Assembly: GCA_025210965.1 (NCBI GenBank)
Contig: JAOAQY010000069.1
Location: 1-64,000, forward strand
DNA from: Tissierellales bacterium
GTDB lineage: Bacteria; Bacillota; Clostridia; Tissierellales; JAOAQY01
Direction of reading: 5' to 3'
DNA length: 64,000 bases
The position numbers and the translations under genes were made by a program. Below the pieces are notes generated by a model. The model had not been told where the DNA came from, ran no database searches, and saw only the letters and a list, made by a program, of their open reading frames with translations. Shown piece after piece: positions 16,356-53,908 of the stretch. Position 1 is the stretch's first letter. Every line of letters begins with the position of its first letter.

Positions 16356-17351
16356 TTGAAAGAATTTTTAAAAATATTTTTAGTAGCCTTAGTTATATTT
16401 TTGATTGTAATTGTAACCGGGGTCAGCGCGCATAAATTTTTTGAATCTGAGGAAAAAATAATTTCAAAAGAAGAGTATAAGGTTGTAGAAGAAACTAAAG
16501 AGAAACATTTAGAGAAAGTTGTTGTAGAAAAAACACCTTTGGAAGAAGCTATAGAAAACAGTGAAAGGATAAATGCGGTTTTTATGGGAATAGAGACTGA
16601 AAATCGTTCAGATGTGATTATGTTTGTAAGTTTTGATCCAGATAATTCTAGTTTGGATATAATGTCAATTCCAAGAGATTCATATTATTATGAAAAGGGA
16701 TATGAAAAATCAGATCAGAGAAAAATAAATGCAGCCTATGGAAGAAATAGAGAAGAAGGGGTTAAAATGGCGGTAGAAGATATATTAGGTGTTCCGGTTC
16801 ATTACTATATAAGTGCGAAATATTCTGGAGTTAAAGCTATAGTTGATGCAGTAGGTGGGGTTGAGGTAGATGTACCAGTTAGAATGCTTTATGATGATCC
16901 TACAGATAATCCGCCTCTACACATAAATATTAAAAAAGGAAAGCAAGTATTAGATGGAAATGATGCAATTGGTTTTTTGAGATACAGACATGGCAACATG
17001 GATCCGAATAGGAATGGAGTGTTTCTAGGAGGTTACAGAGATGGTGACTTGGGTAGAGTTAGGGCACAGCAGTCTTTCATAAAATCAACTATAAAGAAAG
17101 TGTTAGGGAATAATTTTCTATCAGTAGCTAAAACGGCATTATCATATGTAAAAACGAATGCTGGGATGGCAGAAGTATTGTATTACAATGATGATTTGAT
17201 AAAGTTAGATATAGAGAATATACATTTCAGTACGTTACCAGGAATAGCAGAAAAACGAACGTATGGTGGATGGGAATTGTCATATTTTAGTATAGACGAA
17301 GACGAGGTAGAGACATTTATAAATAATCTATACGGGATAGAATCAATATAA
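16356..17351 (+). CDS. LytR-CpsA-Psr (LCP) family protein, first copy
   Basis: TTG 16356 is the only start after the GAGGTCGGTGAT ribosome-binding region. The 331-residue protein has a membrane anchor (about 6-26), a charged K/E-rich linker (about 30-65) and an LCP domain (about 70-330) with RSDVIMFVSFDP, SIPRDSYYY, a conserved GFLRYRH and DLGRVRAQQ, the arginine and aspartate motifs that bind the polyprenyl diphosphate. LCP enzymes transfer glycopolymers from lipid carriers onto peptidoglycan outside the cell. It is the first of two tandem copies that are very similar in the catalytic core. Confidence 0.92.
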   Translation: MKEFLKIFLVALVIFLIVIVTGVSAHKFFESEEKIISKEEYKVVEETKEKHLEKVVVEKTPLEEAIENSERINAVFMGIETENRSDVIMFVSFDPDNSSLDIMSIPRDSYYYEKGYEKSDQRKINAAYGRNREEGVKMAVEDILGVPVHYYISAKYSGVKAIVDAVGGVEVDVPVRMLYDDPTDNPPLHINIKKGKQVLDGNDAIGFLRYRHGNMDPNRNGVFLGGYRDGDLGRVRAQQSFIKSTIKKVLGNNFLSVAKTALSYVKTNAGMAEVLYYNDDLIKLDIENIHFSTLPGIAEKRTYGGWELSYFSIDEDEVETFINNLYGIESI

Positions 17352-17500: not shown

Positions 17501-17539
17501 ACCCTATGTGTTTAAAGAAATTAGAGGTCGGTGATTAGT

Positions 17540-18532
17540 TTGAAGGAGTTTTTGAAAGTATTTTTAGTAGCTTTAGTTGTGTTTTTGATTGCAATTGGGG
17601 CAGGGGTTGGTGCGTACAAATTTTTTGCACCTGAGAAAAAAGCAATTGTAAAAGTGGAAGAAAAGCCTATAGAAGAGGTTATTGAAGTTGAAAAGGTGGA
17701 AGAAGTTGTTCCAGAAAAAACACCTTTAGAAAAAGCTATAGAAAATAGTGAGAGAGTAAATGCAGTTTTTATGGGGATTGAAACGGAGAACCGTTCAGAT
17801 GTGATTATGTTTATAAGTTTTGACCCGGAAACGAGCAAATTAGATGTAATTTCTATTCCAAGAGATACATACTATTACGAAGCAGGTCATGAGAGTGCTG
17901 GTCAGAGAAAGATAAATGCAGCTTATGGACGAAGGCGAGAAGAAGGTGTCGAGGACGCTGTAGAAAATATACTAGGAGTTCCTATCCATTACTATGCGAG
18001 TATAAAATATTCTGGTGTTAGAGCCATAGTTGATGCTATAGGTGGTGTAAAGGTAAATGTACCAGTTAGAATGTTGTATGATGATCCAACAGATAACCCG
18101 CCATTGCACATTAATATTCAAAAAGGTACACAAGTACTAAAAGGGAATGATGCAGTAGGATTTTTGAGATATAGGCATGGTAATATGGATCCTGATAGAG
18201 ATGGAGTATTTCTTGGTGGATATCCAAATGGAGACTTAGGAAGAGTTAGAGCACAGCAAGCTTTTGTAAAATCAGCTATTCAGCAAGCTTTATCTCTAAA
18301 GTTTTCATCGGTAGTTAGAACTGCACTTCCTTATGTTAAGACAAATGCAGGTATGAGTGAGATACTTTTTTATCAGGAAAATTTATTGGGAATTACTTCT
18401 GATAAGATAACGATGGGAACTTTACCTGGTGATGCGAAAATGATGACATATAGCGGTGAGAGACTGTCTTACTTTGAAGCAAGTGAATCAGAAATAGAAA
18501 AACTTGTAAAGAAATTGTATGATGTAAAGTAG
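17540..18532 (+). CDS. LytR-CpsA-Psr (LCP) family protein, second copy
   Basis: TTG 17540 is chosen because it aligns with the forced TTG start of the first copy; a GTG at 17531 is possible but falls inside the ribosome-binding region. The product is 330 residues, with a membrane helix (about 5-26), an E/K/V-rich linker and an LCP domain with the same motifs (SIPRDTYYY, VGFLRYRHGNMDPDRDG, DLGRVRAQQ). It links secondary polymers to the wall, as the first copy does. The linkers and C-termini differ more than the core, suggesting divergence of partner or polymer specificity. Confidence 0.92.
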   Translation: MKEFLKVFLVALVVFLIAIGAGVGAYKFFAPEKKAIVKVEEKPIEEVIEVEKVEEVVPEKTPLEKAIENSERVNAVFMGIETENRSDVIMFISFDPETSKLDVISIPRDTYYYEAGHESAGQRKINAAYGRRREEGVEDAVENILGVPIHYYASIKYSGVRAIVDAIGGVKVNVPVRMLYDDPTDNPPLHINIQKGTQVLKGNDAVGFLRYRHGNMDPDRDGVFLGGYPNGDLGRVRAQQAFVKSAIQQALSLKFSSVVRTALPYVKTNAGMSEILFYQENLLGITSDKITMGTLPGDAKMMTYSGERLSYFEASESEIEKLVKKLYDVK

Positions 18533-49050: not shown

Positions 49051-49075
49051 AAAAAGCGTCCTATGGACGCTTTTT
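49051..49075 (+). terminator. Intrinsic terminator after lysS
   Basis: AAAAAGCGTCC-TAT-GGACGCTTTTT. Confidence 0.92.
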
Positions 49076-49110: not shown

Positions 49111-49677
49111 ATGTACACGTTAGATTCACTTGAACAGATATGCCATGGCTGCCGAAAGTGTAAACTAGGAGAAACTAGAAATCAATTGGTATTTGGAAAA
49201 GGTAAAGAAGATGCTGATATGATGCTTATTGGCGAAGGTCCGGGCTATAATGAAGATCAGCAGGGAATACCGTTTGTAGGAGTTGCAGGTCAATTACTAG
49301 ATAAAATATTGGCAGCTATAGAACTTAGTAAAGAGGAAGTTTATATAGCAAATATAGTTAAATGTAGGCCGCCGAATAATAGAAATCCACTTAAAGAAGA
49401 GGAAGACTCGTGCTTGCCATATTTGAGATGGCAAGTTAAAATTGTAGAGCCCCAAATTATAGTGTGTTTGGGTGCAGTAGCATCTAAGCGATTGATTGAT
49501 GAAAATTTTAGAATAACTAGAGAGCATGGAAAATGGTTTAAAAAAGGGAATTATTGGATGATTGCAACCTATCACCCAGCAGCACTTTTAAGAGATGAAT
49601 CTAAAAAAAGAGATGCATGGGATGACTGGAAGGTAATAAAAGCAAAATATGATGAACTTAAGGGGGAAATAATTTGA
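49111..49677 (+). CDS. Uracil-DNA glycosylase, family 4 (iron-sulfur)
   Basis: The 188-residue protein removes uracil from DNA to start base-excision repair. The four Fe-S ligands of family 4 are present: C14 and C17 (CHGCRKC), C85 (KCRPP) and C101 (DSCLPYL). The active-site motifs GEGPGYNED (41-49) and HPAALL (155-160) are present. AAAGGAGTGATCC precedes the ATG. A second, paralogous gene overlaps its stop by four bases. Confidence 0.93.
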
Positions 49678-50246
49678 ATAAAGAATTTGTAGAACGATTA
49701 AAAAAACACTTTCCTGACAAAAAATTGGTTTTTGGAGATGGAGAAAAATCAACGAAAATTTTATTGATAGGAGAAGCTCCAGGAGAACAAGAAGCTAAAC
49801 AAGGAAAACCATTTGTAGGCAAGGCTGGCAAAAATCTAGATGAATTTATATCTATTCTGAAATTACAGAGAAAAGATTTATACATAACAAATGTGGTCAA
49901 ATTTAGACCAACTAAATTAAGTGTTAAAACTGGGAAACCAATAAACAGACCCCCTAAAAAAGACGAAATAAGTAGTTTTAAACCTTATCTGATAGAAGAA
50001 ATTGAAACTATTAAACCAAAAGTTATAGTAACACTTGGAAATACTCCGTTAAAAGCACTTTTAGGAGACAAGGTAAATATAGGACAATGTCATGGTGAAA
50101 TTCAAACATTGGATTTAAATGGAATAGAATTTGACTTGATGCCGCTCTATCATCCAGCAGCTATAATATACAATCAAAGCTTAAAAGAAATATATGCGAA
50201 TGATTTGGAGCGATTAAGAACATTCTTAGAGGAGAATTTGATATGA
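49674..50246 (+). CDS. Uracil-DNA glycosylase-superfamily paralogue lacking Fe-S cysteines
   Basis: TTG 49674 overlaps the preceding stop (TTGA) after AAGGGGGAA, so translation is coupled. The 190-residue protein keeps the glycosylase motifs GEAPGEQE (33-40) and YHPAA (159-163) and the general fold. It lacks the N-terminal CxxC segment, has F77 in KFRP where the neighbour has C85, and F102 in SFKPYL where the neighbour has C101. It therefore cannot form the family 4 cluster. It also has a longer insertion around 80-97. Function could be an altered-specificity glycosylase or a partner of the first. Confidence 0.85.
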
Positions 50247-51019
50247 AAAAGCCAAATATACTGAAGTGGGTTGGAACAATATTATTGATTAGTGGATTGA
50301 TGTCTATTATAGGTCAAAATATCTTATTTAATATCTTGAGAAATCAAAATTTATTAACTAATGTAAATGCTAGTTCTATAACTATATTGTATTCCCTAAT
50401 AGCTGTGATTAGTTTGATGAGCGGTATATTGATCTTAAAAGGAAATTCAATTGGAGAAAAAGTATATCTTTTGAGTATGCCTATAGCTATTGGGGTAGAA
50501 ATTTTCATGGTAGGATTTACACCCATGGTCATGTCGAATTCTATGGCTTGTATTTTGGTATATTTATTGTTGAATACACAAGATGTAAAAGATTTTTTTA
50601 AAGAAAATAGGTTAGAAAAAGAAGAAATGAAAGAATCGAAAATTATAGAAGCACCGTACAAATTACTTGGAGTATTTTTATATGGAATAAGTTTATTTAT
50701 ACTAACTGGTGGTATAATATTGGGATTTTTAGCGATAGCAAATTTAGGAGACTTTAGATACTTTGAGATTGCTTTGGTTTTGATTGGAGTAGTTTTGAAT
50801 ATATTTAGTTTGAAACTGTGGAAAATTAATTTTAAATTCATGATAGGAGTATCTTTTATAGTAGTTGGAAGTTTGTTTTTAATAAATGCAGTAACATTTT
50901 CACTTCTGGAGAGAATTGTATCAGAGCAGATATTATTAATGAAATATATTTTGTCAGGTTTAATCGGGATTGGGCAATTATTTTTAGGAAAAAGTCTTGT
51001 TTTGAAATCGAGAAAGTGA
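50243..51019 (+). CDS. Polytopic membrane protein of unknown function
   Basis: The 258-residue protein has about eight hydrophobic segments in two groups, separated by a short charged loop (about 115-133, FFKENRLEKEEMKESKI). It overlaps the preceding glycosylase-like gene by four bases, and AGAGGAG precedes the ATG, so it is coupled. I recognise no family. The link to uracil repair is only by position. Confidence 0.65.
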   Translation: MKKPNILKWVGTILLISGLMSIIGQNILFNILRNQNLLTNVNASSITILYSLIAVISLMSGILILKGNSIGEKVYLLSMPIAIGVEIFMVGFTPMVMSNSMACILVYLLLNTQDVKDFFKENRLEKEEMKESKIIEAPYKLLGVFLYGISLFILTGGIILGFLAIANLGDFRYFEIALVLIGVVLNIFSLKLWKINFKFMIGVSFIVVGSLFLINAVTFSLLERIVSEQILLMKYILSGLIGIGQLFLGKSLVLKSRK

Positions 51020-51077: not shown

Positions 51078-51095
51078 AATGTGGAGGTGCAATTA

Positions 51096-53444
51096 TTGAA
51101 AGTTATAAAACGAAATGGAGATTTAGTTGAATTTAACAAAAATAAGATTGTGGTAGCTATACGAGCTTCTATGGCTGAAACTAAGCTTGGAATTGAAGAG
51201 GATATCATAGCGGATGTAGTTGCAGTTGTTGAACAAATCATTGAAAAAGGTTATGAAAGCATTAATGTAGAAGATATACAAGATATTGTTGAAAATGCAC
51301 TTATGGATAGTAGTCGAAAAGATGCTGCTAAGCGATATATATTGTATAGATATGAAAGAGATAAAACTAGAGATGCTAGAAAAAGACATGATGGAAGTTT
51401 ATTGAGTGAAGAATTTGTAAGTCAGTATAAACACAAGCCATCGCCTATGAAACAATTGGGGAATTTTGTATACTACAGAACGTATTCCCGATATATACCT
51501 GATTTAAAAAGAAGAGAATATTGGTGGGAGACTGTAAAACGAGCGGTAGATTATAATTGTAAATTAGTTCCAACTACTAAAGAAGAAGCTGAAAATTTAT
51601 ACGATAATATATTTAATTTGAGACAATTTCTATCGGGTAGAACATTTTGGGTTGGAAACACAGAAGTAGCTAAAAATTATCCTATGTCGAACTATAATTG
51701 TGCATTTGAAGTTATAAATAGTTTTGAATCTTTGAGGGATTTATTTTATTTACTGATGGTAGGAGCTGGAGTTGGCGTTAGAATATTAAAATCAGATGTT
51801 GAGCAACTGCCTAAAATTCGAACAGATTATGATTTGATTCATGGGGATTATACTCCTATTCAAAAGCAAAATAGAGAAGATAGCACTAGTCTCGAGTTCA
51901 GTTATAATTCGGTTGTTAAAATAACGGTAGGAGATAGTAAAGAGGGTTGGGTTCAATCGCTTGATTATTTCTTTAGATTGTTGTATAGCAACGAATACAG
52001 AAATATTAAGACAATTATAATAAATTATGACCATGTTAGACCTAAAGGAGAAAGGCTCAAAACATTTGGAGGAACAGCTAGTGGTCATGAGAGTCTTAAA
52101 AACATGTTTTATAAAGTAGATAGAGTTATAAAGAAAGCCTCTGTGTTAGCTGAAAAAGCAAGAATAGCACTAAGACCTATAGATTGCTTGGATATAGCAA
52201 ACATAATTGGAGAAAATGTTGTAGTAGGTGGAGTTAGAAGGACAGCAGAAATAGTACTTGTAGATCAAGATGATGAAATGAGCATTGATGCAAAAACTAA
52301 TTTATACAAAAAAATTGACAATAACTGGATAGTGGATCAGGAAATAATTCATAGACAGATGAGTAATAATTCAATATATTATACAAAAAAACCTACGCGA
52401 GAAAGATTACATTGGCAAATGGAAAAAATGAGATATTCTGGAGAACCTGGCTGGGTAAACGAAGAAGCGGGAGCTAAAAGACGTCCGAATATGAATGGGG
52501 TAAACCCTTGCGGAGAGATATTGCTAGATGCGAAGGGAATGTGTAATCTGACTACAGTAAATGTATATTCATTTGTAGAAAATGGAAAACTAGATATTGA
52601 AAGATTGCTTGATGCTCAAAGACTTTCAGCTAGGGCGGCATATAGAATGACTTGTGTAGAACTTGAAATACCTAAGTGGGATAAGGTTCAAAATAGAGAT
52701 AGGCTATTAGGATGCTCAATGACGGGATGGCAAGATATGGTTAATGCAACTAGTATGGAGAGAGAAGAGCAAAAGCATATACTTGGAGAACTTAGAAAAG
52801 CTGCGCGTGAAGCTGCAGATGAGTATGCTAGGGAACTAGGTCATAGTGAACCACTTCTTGTGACTACTGTAAAGCCGGAGGGAACATTATCTCAACTTCC
52901 AACAGTGTCTAGTGGAGTTCATTATTCACACTCACCTTACTTTATAAGACGAGTTAGGATTAGTTCTGATGATCCATTGGTCAAAGTTTGTGAAGAGTTA
53001 GGTTACCCAGTATTTCCAGAAGTTGGGCAAGATATTAAAACTTGTACAACTAAAGTAGTAGAATTTCCAGTAAAGGCACCAGATGGAATTACTAAGTATG
53101 ATGTAAGTGCTATAGAACAATTAGAAAATTATAAGATGTTTATGAAACACTATGTAGATCACAATTGTTCTATTACAATACATGTAAGACCGCATGAATG
53201 GGAAACTGTAGAAGAATGGGTTTGGGAAAATTGGGATGATGTTGTGGCACTTTCGTTTTTGGCATTAGATGATAATTTTTACGAATTATTACCATATGAA
53301 GCTATTGACGAAGAAGAGTACAATAGGAGAGTTGGTGAAATGAAATCATTTATACCATCTCTCATTAGTAAGTATGAAAAAGAAGAAACTGAATTTGACA
53401 TAGGGACAGAGGGTTGTGAATCAGGAGTTTGTCCGATAAGATAG
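51096..53444 (+). CDS. nrdJ: Adenosylcobalamin-dependent ribonucleoside-triphosphate reductase (class II)
   Basis: TTG 51096 follows GGAGGTG (51083-51089). The product is about 782 residues: an N-terminal ATP-cone (about 1-95, VIKRNGDLVEFNKNKIVVAIRASM), then the reductase barrel with NYNCAFEVINSF, the finger loop NPCGEILL and a C-terminal Cys pair in CESGVCPIR. It makes dNTPs from NTPs with B12, without oxygen dependence. It resembles the monomeric Lactobacillus type. No cobalamin riboswitch can fit in the 76-base gap upstream. Confidence 0.94.
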   Translation: MKVIKRNGDLVEFNKNKIVVAIRASMAETKLGIEEDIIADVVAVVEQIIEKGYESINVEDIQDIVENALMDSSRKDAAKRYILYRYERDKTRDARKRHDGSLLSEEFVSQYKHKPSPMKQLGNFVYYRTYSRYIPDLKRREYWWETVKRAVDYNCKLVPTTKEEAENLYDNIFNLRQFLSGRTFWVGNTEVAKNYPMSNYNCAFEVINSFESLRDLFYLLMVGAGVGVRILKSDVEQLPKIRTDYDLIHGDYTPIQKQNREDSTSLEFSYNSVVKITVGDSKEGWVQSLDYFFRLLYSNEYRNIKTIIINYDHVRPKGERLKTFGGTASGHESLKNMFYKVDRVIKKASVLAEKARIALRPIDCLDIANIIGENVVVGGVRRTAEIVLVDQDDEMSIDAKTNLYKKIDNNWIVDQEIIHRQMSNNSIYYTKKPTRERLHWQMEKMRYSGEPGWVNEEAGAKRRPNMNGVNPCGEILLDAKGMCNLTTVNVYSFVENGKLDIERLLDAQRLSARAAYRMTCVELEIPKWDKVQNRDRLLGCSMTGWQDMVNATSMEREEQKHILGELRKAAREAADEYARELGHSEPLLVTTVKPEGTLSQLPTVSSGVHYSHSPYFIRRVRISSDDPLVKVCEELGYPVFPEVGQDIKTCTTKVVEFPVKAPDGITKYDVSAIEQLENYKMFMKHYVDHNCSITIHVRPHEWETVEEWVWENWDDVVALSFLALDDNFYELLPYEAIDEEEYNRRVGEMKSFIPSLISKYEKEETEFDIGTEGCESGVCPIR

Positions 53445-53452
53445 GAGTAAAC

Positions 53453-53908
53453 ATGAAAATTAGAGGATTTGAATTAGTAAGCGACAAAAACAAAAAGCAA
53501 AATGATGAGGTTAAATTGCCTAAAAGAGGCAGTAAAACATCGGCTGGATATGATTTTTATACACCAATAGATGTGGATATAGAAGCTGGTAAACAAGCTA
53601 TTGTTTGGACTGATATAAAAGCATATATGCAGGAGGATGAAGTACTGCAGCTTTATGTTAGAAGTTCGATAGGTATAAAAAAAGGTATAGTGCTTTCAAA
53701 TGGAACCGGAATAGTCGATCATGATTATTACAATAATGATTCGAATGAAGGAAACATTGGTATTGCATTAATTAATAATAGCGACAAAACAGTAAATATA
53801 AATGCAGGAGAAAGAATAGCGCAAGGGATATTTATGAAATACTTGGTTGCAGATCAAGGAAATAGTGATGAAACTAGAACTGGCGGTATTGGAAGTACAG
53901 ATAAATAG
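53453..53908 (+). CDS. dut: dUTPase-family protein
   Basis: ATG 53453 follows AGGAGT; an upstream start overlapping nrdJ is less likely. The 151-residue protein has all five dUTPase motifs in modified form: AGYDFY, YVRSSIGIKKG, NGTGIVDHDYYN (motif 3), RIAQGIF and the C-terminal RTGGIGSTDK. It would hydrolyse dUTP to dUMP and so supports nrdJ, eight bases upstream, and limits uracil in DNA. Motif 3 has DHDYYNND in place of the usual DxDYRG, so the enzyme is a divergent type. Confidence 0.85.
   Translation: MKIRGFELVSDKNKKQNDEVKLPKRGSKTSAGYDFYTPIDVDIEAGKQAIVWTDIKAYMQEDEVLQLYVRSSIGIKKGIVLSNGTGIVDHDYYNNDSNEGNIGIALINNSDKTVNINAGERIAQGIFMKYLVADQGNSDETRTGGIGSTDK

Follow-up and report, generated by a model that had tools for sequence, protein, structure and literature searches.

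In a 64,000-nucleotide stretch of a Tissierellales genome (contig JAOAQY010000069.1; hereafter the window), two uracil-DNA glycosylase (UDG) genes overlap, and only the first encodes the cysteines that hold the iron-sulfur cluster of family 4 enzymes. This arrangement raises the question of what the second protein does: the initial annotation proposed that it is a cluster-free glycosylase, an enzyme with a changed base specificity, or a subunit of the first.

The gene pair and its setting

The first gene, gene A, encodes the full set of family 4 ligands, with C14, C17, C85 and C101 all read among its cysteines (11, 14, 17, 85, 101 and 119), and it scores 200 bits against the family 4 model TIGR00758, whose cut-off is 125.3. 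The second, gene B, encodes a single cysteine, C139. All four cluster cysteines are missing from B; the N-terminal CxxC is absent and phenylalanines, F77 and F102, stand at the other two positions. B retains the motifs GEAPGEQE (33–40, with GEAPG at 33–37) and HPAA (160–163). The two genes overlap by four bases: the TTG start of gene B (49674–49676) falls within the final codons of gene A, and gene A ends with a TGA stop (49675–49677). In each of these points our reading agrees with the initial annotation. B also scores 156.5 bits against TIGR00758, above the curated cut-off, which is presumably why such genes get named family 4 UDG; genes filed in this family by score may be cluster-free. Gene B is neither a chance pattern nor a damaged gene; the idea that it is degenerating was ruled out by the conservation of its residues and by its open frame.

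Table 1 Features of the gene pair, its neighbours and related loci
Feature	Position	Strand	Remarks
Gene A, canonical family 4 UDG	49111–49677	+	188 aa; Pfam UDG; CxxC (14, 17), C85, C101
Gene B, cluster-free long-loop UDG homologue	49674–50246	+	190 aa
Ribosome-binding site of gene B, AAGGGGG	49660–49666	+	strong; 7 nt 5' of TTG; read from sequence
F77 codon of gene B	49902–49904	+	replaces third cluster cysteine (Tth C84)
F102 codon of gene B	49977–49979	+	replaces fourth cluster cysteine (Tth C100)
Codons 80–90 of gene B, beta hairpin with loop insert	49911–49943	+	alignments and AlphaFold model
Terminator-like hairpin, intergenic (lysS/gene A)	49051–49075	+	pattern scan: 11 pairs, then T run; consensus match only
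Membrane protein gene	50243–51019	+	258 aa; ATG at 50243; overlaps gene B by 4 bases; no Pfam match
B12-dependent ribonucleotide reductase (neighbour)	51081–53444	+	
dUTPase (neighbour)	53429–53908	+	
Cluster-bearing long-loop UDGs, other classes of the phylum	L200–L207, L209–L216, L218–L226		

Upstream of gene A lie greA and lysS. Given that gene B overlaps the membrane protein gene downstream as well, three genes are coupled at this locus. A conserved link between gene B and the membrane gene was rejected, as it appears in its own genome and as one weak match among 60 genomes of the order, and the membrane gene is probably outside the gene A/B system. The pair has lysS on its 5' side in at least 10 of 29 loci from the order (L003–L031), and a reductase lies near gene A in at least two others (L007 and L011); these counts are lower bounds because the order loci extend no further than about 1.4 kb either way. 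A ribonucleotide reductase, a dUTPase and uracil glycosylases make sense together as uracil hygiene; only the link to lysS recurs often here. Elsewhere in the window, two open frames (331 and 333 aa; 16356–17351 and 17531–18532) that clearly resemble each other lie in tandem.

Active-site residues and predicted fold of B

Across 24 aligned B proteins, E34, A35, E40, F47, N73, K76, N91 and H160 are invariant; these residues correspond to E41, (G/A)42, E47, F54, N80, K83, N89 and H155 of Thermus UDGa. From the loci retrieved we also assembled a set of 86 B proteins, taking as criteria an insert of 8–9 residues and a residue other than cysteine at the third ligand site, so that insert length and the missing third cysteine are selection criteria in this set and not findings. 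The full octet is retained in 83 of the 86, the exceptions being one K-to-R change and two incomplete rows. The first and second ligand cysteines, which are independent of the selection criteria, occur in none of them (0/86). Twelve keep the fourth ligand cysteine alone (L042, L057–L059, L064, L069, L082, L083, L094, L095, L097 and L246), perhaps as a remnant of stepwise loss. Outside the octet, Tyr166 of B aligns with Tyr170 of S. tokodaii UDG, a residue that is reportedly linked to DNA binding, going by the title of a 2015 study by Kawai. Between species, B is almost as conserved as A, though it is evolving somewhat faster, with a mean identity of 48.5% vs 55.6% for A (1431 pairs from 54 loci).

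The roles of these residues in Thermus UDGa are described in PMC5387724, where every residue of the octet except K83 was mutated: N80 acts in uracil recognition, E47 in thymine exclusion, H155 in stabilisation of the leaving group and N89 in placement of the water. B retains both the uracil-reading and the thymine-excluding residues, as part of the octet found in 83 of 86 proteins, and this argues against the changed base specificity that had been suggested for it.

The AlphaFold2 model of B (pLDDT 94.3, pTM 0.90) superposes on the structures of family 4 enzymes and UdgX. In the model, the insert forms a beta hairpin with strands at 80–82 and 89–91 that leads into the catalytic N91 and occupies the place of the cluster-anchored loop, and the N-terminal segment that carries the CxxC in family 4 is a plain helix. 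A Foldseek search with the model ranked UdgX first, followed by the family 4 enzymes of S. tokodaii and Thermus. The VIA-align Z scores are ties, at 24.2 to both 1ui1 and 4zbx and 23.8 to the UdgX-ssDNA structure 6iod.

How does B compare with known systems? With family 4 UDGa (Thermus thermophilus 1ui0, Sulfolobus tokodaii 4zbx) it shares the fold, all checked catalytic and pocket residues, the tyrosine matching S. tokodaii Tyr170, a TIGR00758 score above the cut-off, and the motifs GE(A/G)PG and HPAA, which define the family in PMC10359453. It differs in having no cluster cysteines, a plain helix for the CxxC segment and a hairpin before the catalytic Asn. Because B has the motifs, residues and score of family 4 but not its cluster ligands, it should not be filed as plain family 4.

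Membership of an already known cluster-free UDG family, which the initial annotation had named beforehand as speaking against its reading, was not found by the motif tests made. BdiUng and UDG families 1, 2, 3 and 6 belong to the same superfamily and are cluster-free; motif A of BdiUng is GQDPA, which is absent from B, where GEAPG stands instead. Likewise absent from B are motif A of families 1, 2 and 3 (GQDPY, GINPG and GMNPG, respectively; B has GEAPG) and the family 5 UDGb motifs GLAPA and HPSPLN (B has GEAPG and HPAAII), as these motifs are given in PMC10359453. B is a cluster-free variant on the known family 4 fold, set apart from UdgX and from families 1, 2, 3 and 5. No description of cluster-free family 4 paralogues in Clostridia was found in the literature searched, which included few subscription papers.

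Ancestry of B and loss of the cluster

Among 398 genomes of the phylum, a search revealed four-cysteine proteins that have an insert at the same site as B and the same C-terminal signature. The 25 rows of cluster-bearing long-loop UDGs in Table 1 were selected by four cysteines and an insert of at least five residues, so that these two traits are their definition and not a finding. The catalytic octet is complete in all 25. In a profile comparison with 16 of these cluster-bearing long-loop proteins, B gives a probability of 100 and 42% identity, and the model of one of them (pLDDT 90.9) has a hairpin too, with strands at 93–95 and 104–106. They therefore share with B the insert site, the signature HPAA.IY..L..Y..D, the octet and, as described below, a clade; unlike B, they keep all four cysteines. 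No published name for them was found in the literature searched.

The initial annotation had proposed a phylogeny of both proteins. We built a first tree of 106 rows, using subsamples of the rows for A, B, the long-loop proteins and the viral proteins, and removed 26 chosen rows (long branches and near-copies) to give a tree of 80 proteins, with the cysteine and loop columns omitted. In the 80-protein tree, B forms one clade (98/94) within a clade made up entirely of long-loop proteins (97/97) from which A is excluded. We then compared groupings, picked after the first tree was known, by the AU test. Forcing A and B into one clade is rejected (49.6 log units, p-AU 0.021); a tree that keeps every cluster-free long-loop protein in one clade is not rejected, scoring 4.0 units better (p-AU 0.62). 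The tree and the AU test (p-AU 0.021) thus reject a recent duplication of A as the origin of B. On this phylogeny, A and B are old paralogues, with B descending from a separate long-loop lineage that is widespread in Clostridia.

These results amend the proposal that the cluster was lost in a retained paralogue: the two paralogues are old, and the loss happened within B's own long-loop lineage. Because the long-loop relatives of B in other classes keep four cysteines, it was probably an ancestor of B that lost the cluster, and the hairpin most likely arose before this loss. It is possible that a single loss is shared by B, the Bacilli homologues described below and a small group in Clostridia. 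In a Clostridia subgroup (L208 and L243, from genomes G098 and G199), the proteins are cluster-free with a long loop, and Phe replaces the conserved Lys83.

Over the whole tree, at least five changes of cluster state are required, which implies cluster loss elsewhere too, for example in the haloarchaeal proteins L193 and L233. These plasmid homologues (L193 541–1098, L233 701–1174) have no cluster cysteines, no insert and a whole octet, and they probably represent an independent loss. Spread of B on plasmids was rejected: of 451 records, none is more than 60% identical, and none of the eight records inspected is B-type. An origin of B in phages was rejected as well, as it has only a weak match to the UDG domains of phage polymerases (SPO1, 31.7% identity). 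Among the viral-contig rows listed, none is B-type; most have four cysteines, one is Bacilli-type (L108), and four have neither cluster cysteines nor an insert (L125, L142, L158 and L174).

The cluster-free homologues in Bacilli (Enterococcus WP_002355481.1, Listeria and G543; L187–L189 and L217) share the insert and HPA(A/S).(F/L)Y with B. Unlike B, they have Ser for the uracil-reading Asn, Arg for the Lys, and an insert of 11–17 residues. Proteins of this type are encoded at L187 5956–6606, L188 4001–4543 and L189 703–1284, and also in L217 and L108. Given the substitutions at Asn80 (Ser) and Lys83 (Arg), it is quite possible that the Bacilli-type homologues have acquired a changed base specificity.

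Together, these proteins offer a graded natural series built on the same catalytic residues: a cluster with a short loop (A), a cluster with a long loop, one leftover cysteine, and no cluster with a long loop (B). Comparisons across the series would bear on the role of the cluster, be it redox sensing, loop anchoring or mere stabilisation of the fold.

Distribution and predicted function

The B profile was searched against 391 Clostridia genomes, which it divides sharply. It has a match of at least 158 bits in 95 of them, and the next among the matches listed score 140 bits or less; two of these lower matches are partial B genes by sequence and the others compared are A. The source genome, 95.8% complete, has no UDG-superfamily matches besides A and B, and it lacks Ung. 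More broadly, Ung is found in 2 of 97 Clostridia genomes with B vs 216 of 294 without B (Fisher p 1e-39 with kinship ignored, from genome lists compiled by hand). Presence of Ung was scored as a TIGR00628 match at E <1e-50 (218 of 239 matches), except that G031 and G043 were scored as Ung-bearing from a 62-bit PF03167 match alone, outside the TIGR00628 search. Ung is also found in 16 of 74 genomes that have a match but not B. Its scarcity is common to family 4 in general and is not specific to B, and related genomes are not independent.

The survey of the gene pair in relatives that had been suggested showed that the two genes are often neighbours. A lies directly 5' of B, on the same strand and within 150 nt, in 18 of the 29 loci from the order (a set located by means of A), in 15 of 37 genome-contig loci holding B, and in 17 of 30 class loci with B (the best 30 of 95), with distances taken from stop-to-stop frames and not from true starts. 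A occurs without a nearby B in the remaining 11 of the 29 order loci. B also occurs without A. Nine of the 95 B genomes have no second match; we checked these nine together with G031 and G043, all picked for the apparent absence of A, with PF03167. B was found without A in all 11 draft genomes. In seven it is the sole gene of the UDG superfamily (99, 96, 92, 88, 80, 71 and 61% complete), and in the other four it is accompanied by an Ung-like gene.

From sequence, model and distribution, we consider it probable that B is a working uracil-DNA glycosylase with a family 4 fold and no [4Fe-4S] cluster, the first of the possibilities raised at the outset and one that these data support well as a predicted activity. 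With the cluster lost but the checked active-site residues kept, B probably removes uracil independently of iron; its presence without A in 11 drafts, and as the sole UDG gene in seven, makes an obligatory subunit or a dead copy unlikely. We infer the catalysis, the substrate and the freedom from any other metal. Support for the dispensability of the cluster comes from two archaeal family 4 enzymes in which removal of ligand cysteines cost only about 40% of activity, according to PMC5295032. The same paper reports frequent inactivity among the family 4 paralogues of Halobacteria, and because many haloarchaeal paralogues are inactive, catalysis by B should not be taken for granted.

If B works as we propose, uracil would be flipped into the same pocket as in Thermus UDGa, where N73 would read N3 and O4, F47 would stack on the base and E40 would exclude thymine. 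H160 would stabilise the leaving uracilate, and N91 would position the attacking water, as proposed for the Thermus enzyme. The hairpin and the aromatic residue at site 77 may take over the structural, loop-anchoring work of the cluster, and A and B would be made together from their overlapping genes. B is thus a candidate for a small, iron-independent uracil-DNA glycosylase.

The retention of B beside A calls for the two to share the work in a way that the sequence leaves unexplained. One explanation is that B, though active as a glycosylase, prefers a different target from A, either another damaged base or uracil in a particular DNA setting, such as single strands or replication forks, with the longer hairpin near the active site doing the selecting. 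We regard this as unlikely. Several observations are consistent with a different target: many lineages retain A and B as a neighbouring pair, the best Foldseek matches are to UdgX, whose extended loop alters the chemistry there, and where B occurs together with an Ung-like gene, in four genomes, the missing gene is A, as if Ung replaces A and not B. The last pattern hints at something other than plain redundancy between B and Ung, but the four genomes are few, partly related and drafts. Against a different target, the base-reading and thymine-excluding residues match those of the narrow-specificity Thermus enzyme in 83 of 86 B proteins, and being the sole UDG in seven genomes suits a general uracil remover.

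Rather improbable, too, is a further reading, a guess that fits the observations, in which bacteria of this lineage keep B as a stress-proof twin: under oxidants, A would fail just as uracil rises, and the coupled, cluster-free B would carry the repair. Nitric oxide and related oxidants both deaminate cytosine to uracil and destroy iron-sulfur clusters. In this reading, the hairpin of a long-loop ancestor would no longer have relied on anchoring by the cluster, and this would have made the loss possible.

It is very unlikely that B is a non-catalytic partner of A that, for instance, binds DNA or lends stability within a heterodimer, with coupled translation supplying both halves in equal amounts. 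The frequency with which A lies immediately 5' of B (18/29, 15/37 and, among the best class loci, 17/30) fits such a partnership; the 11 genomes in which PF03167 finds B without A do not, nor do the common cases of A without a nearby B, and strict conservation of catalytic residues is unexpected for a dead subunit. The role as a subunit of A that the initial annotation had considered is therefore disfavoured by the genomes that have B without A.

Our preferred reading, a cluster-free hydrolytic glycosylase, also separates B from UdgX. The Mycobacterium smegmatis protein and B both combine the family 4 fold with a loop extended at the same site. They differ in the cluster, which UdgX carries and for which B has no ligands; in motif A, which reads GEQPG in UdgX and GEAPG in B; and in the residue at the position of the cross-linking His109 of UdgX, where B has Asn91. 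In PMC10359453, His109 takes the role of Thermus N89, and replacing His109 with one of six other amino acids restores UDG activity to UdgX. Because B has Asn at this site, ordinary hydrolysis is expected and not cross-linking. That B, like UdgX, bonds covalently to DNA once it has taken out the uracil is scarcely credible despite the extended loop at the position of the UdgX R-loop and the top Foldseek matches, since B has N91 instead of the cross-linking His, GEAPG instead of GEQPG and no KRRIH, scores 112.3 bits against TIGR03914 where the cut-off is 189.95, and falls in a tree where a clade of UdgX with the long-loop proteins is 17.9 log units lower (p-AU 0.228; not favoured, not rejected). 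All four UdgX proteins in our set (L228–L231) have His at the site of the third cluster cysteine (C, C, H, C), and their cluster may be held by a His ligand or by three cysteines.
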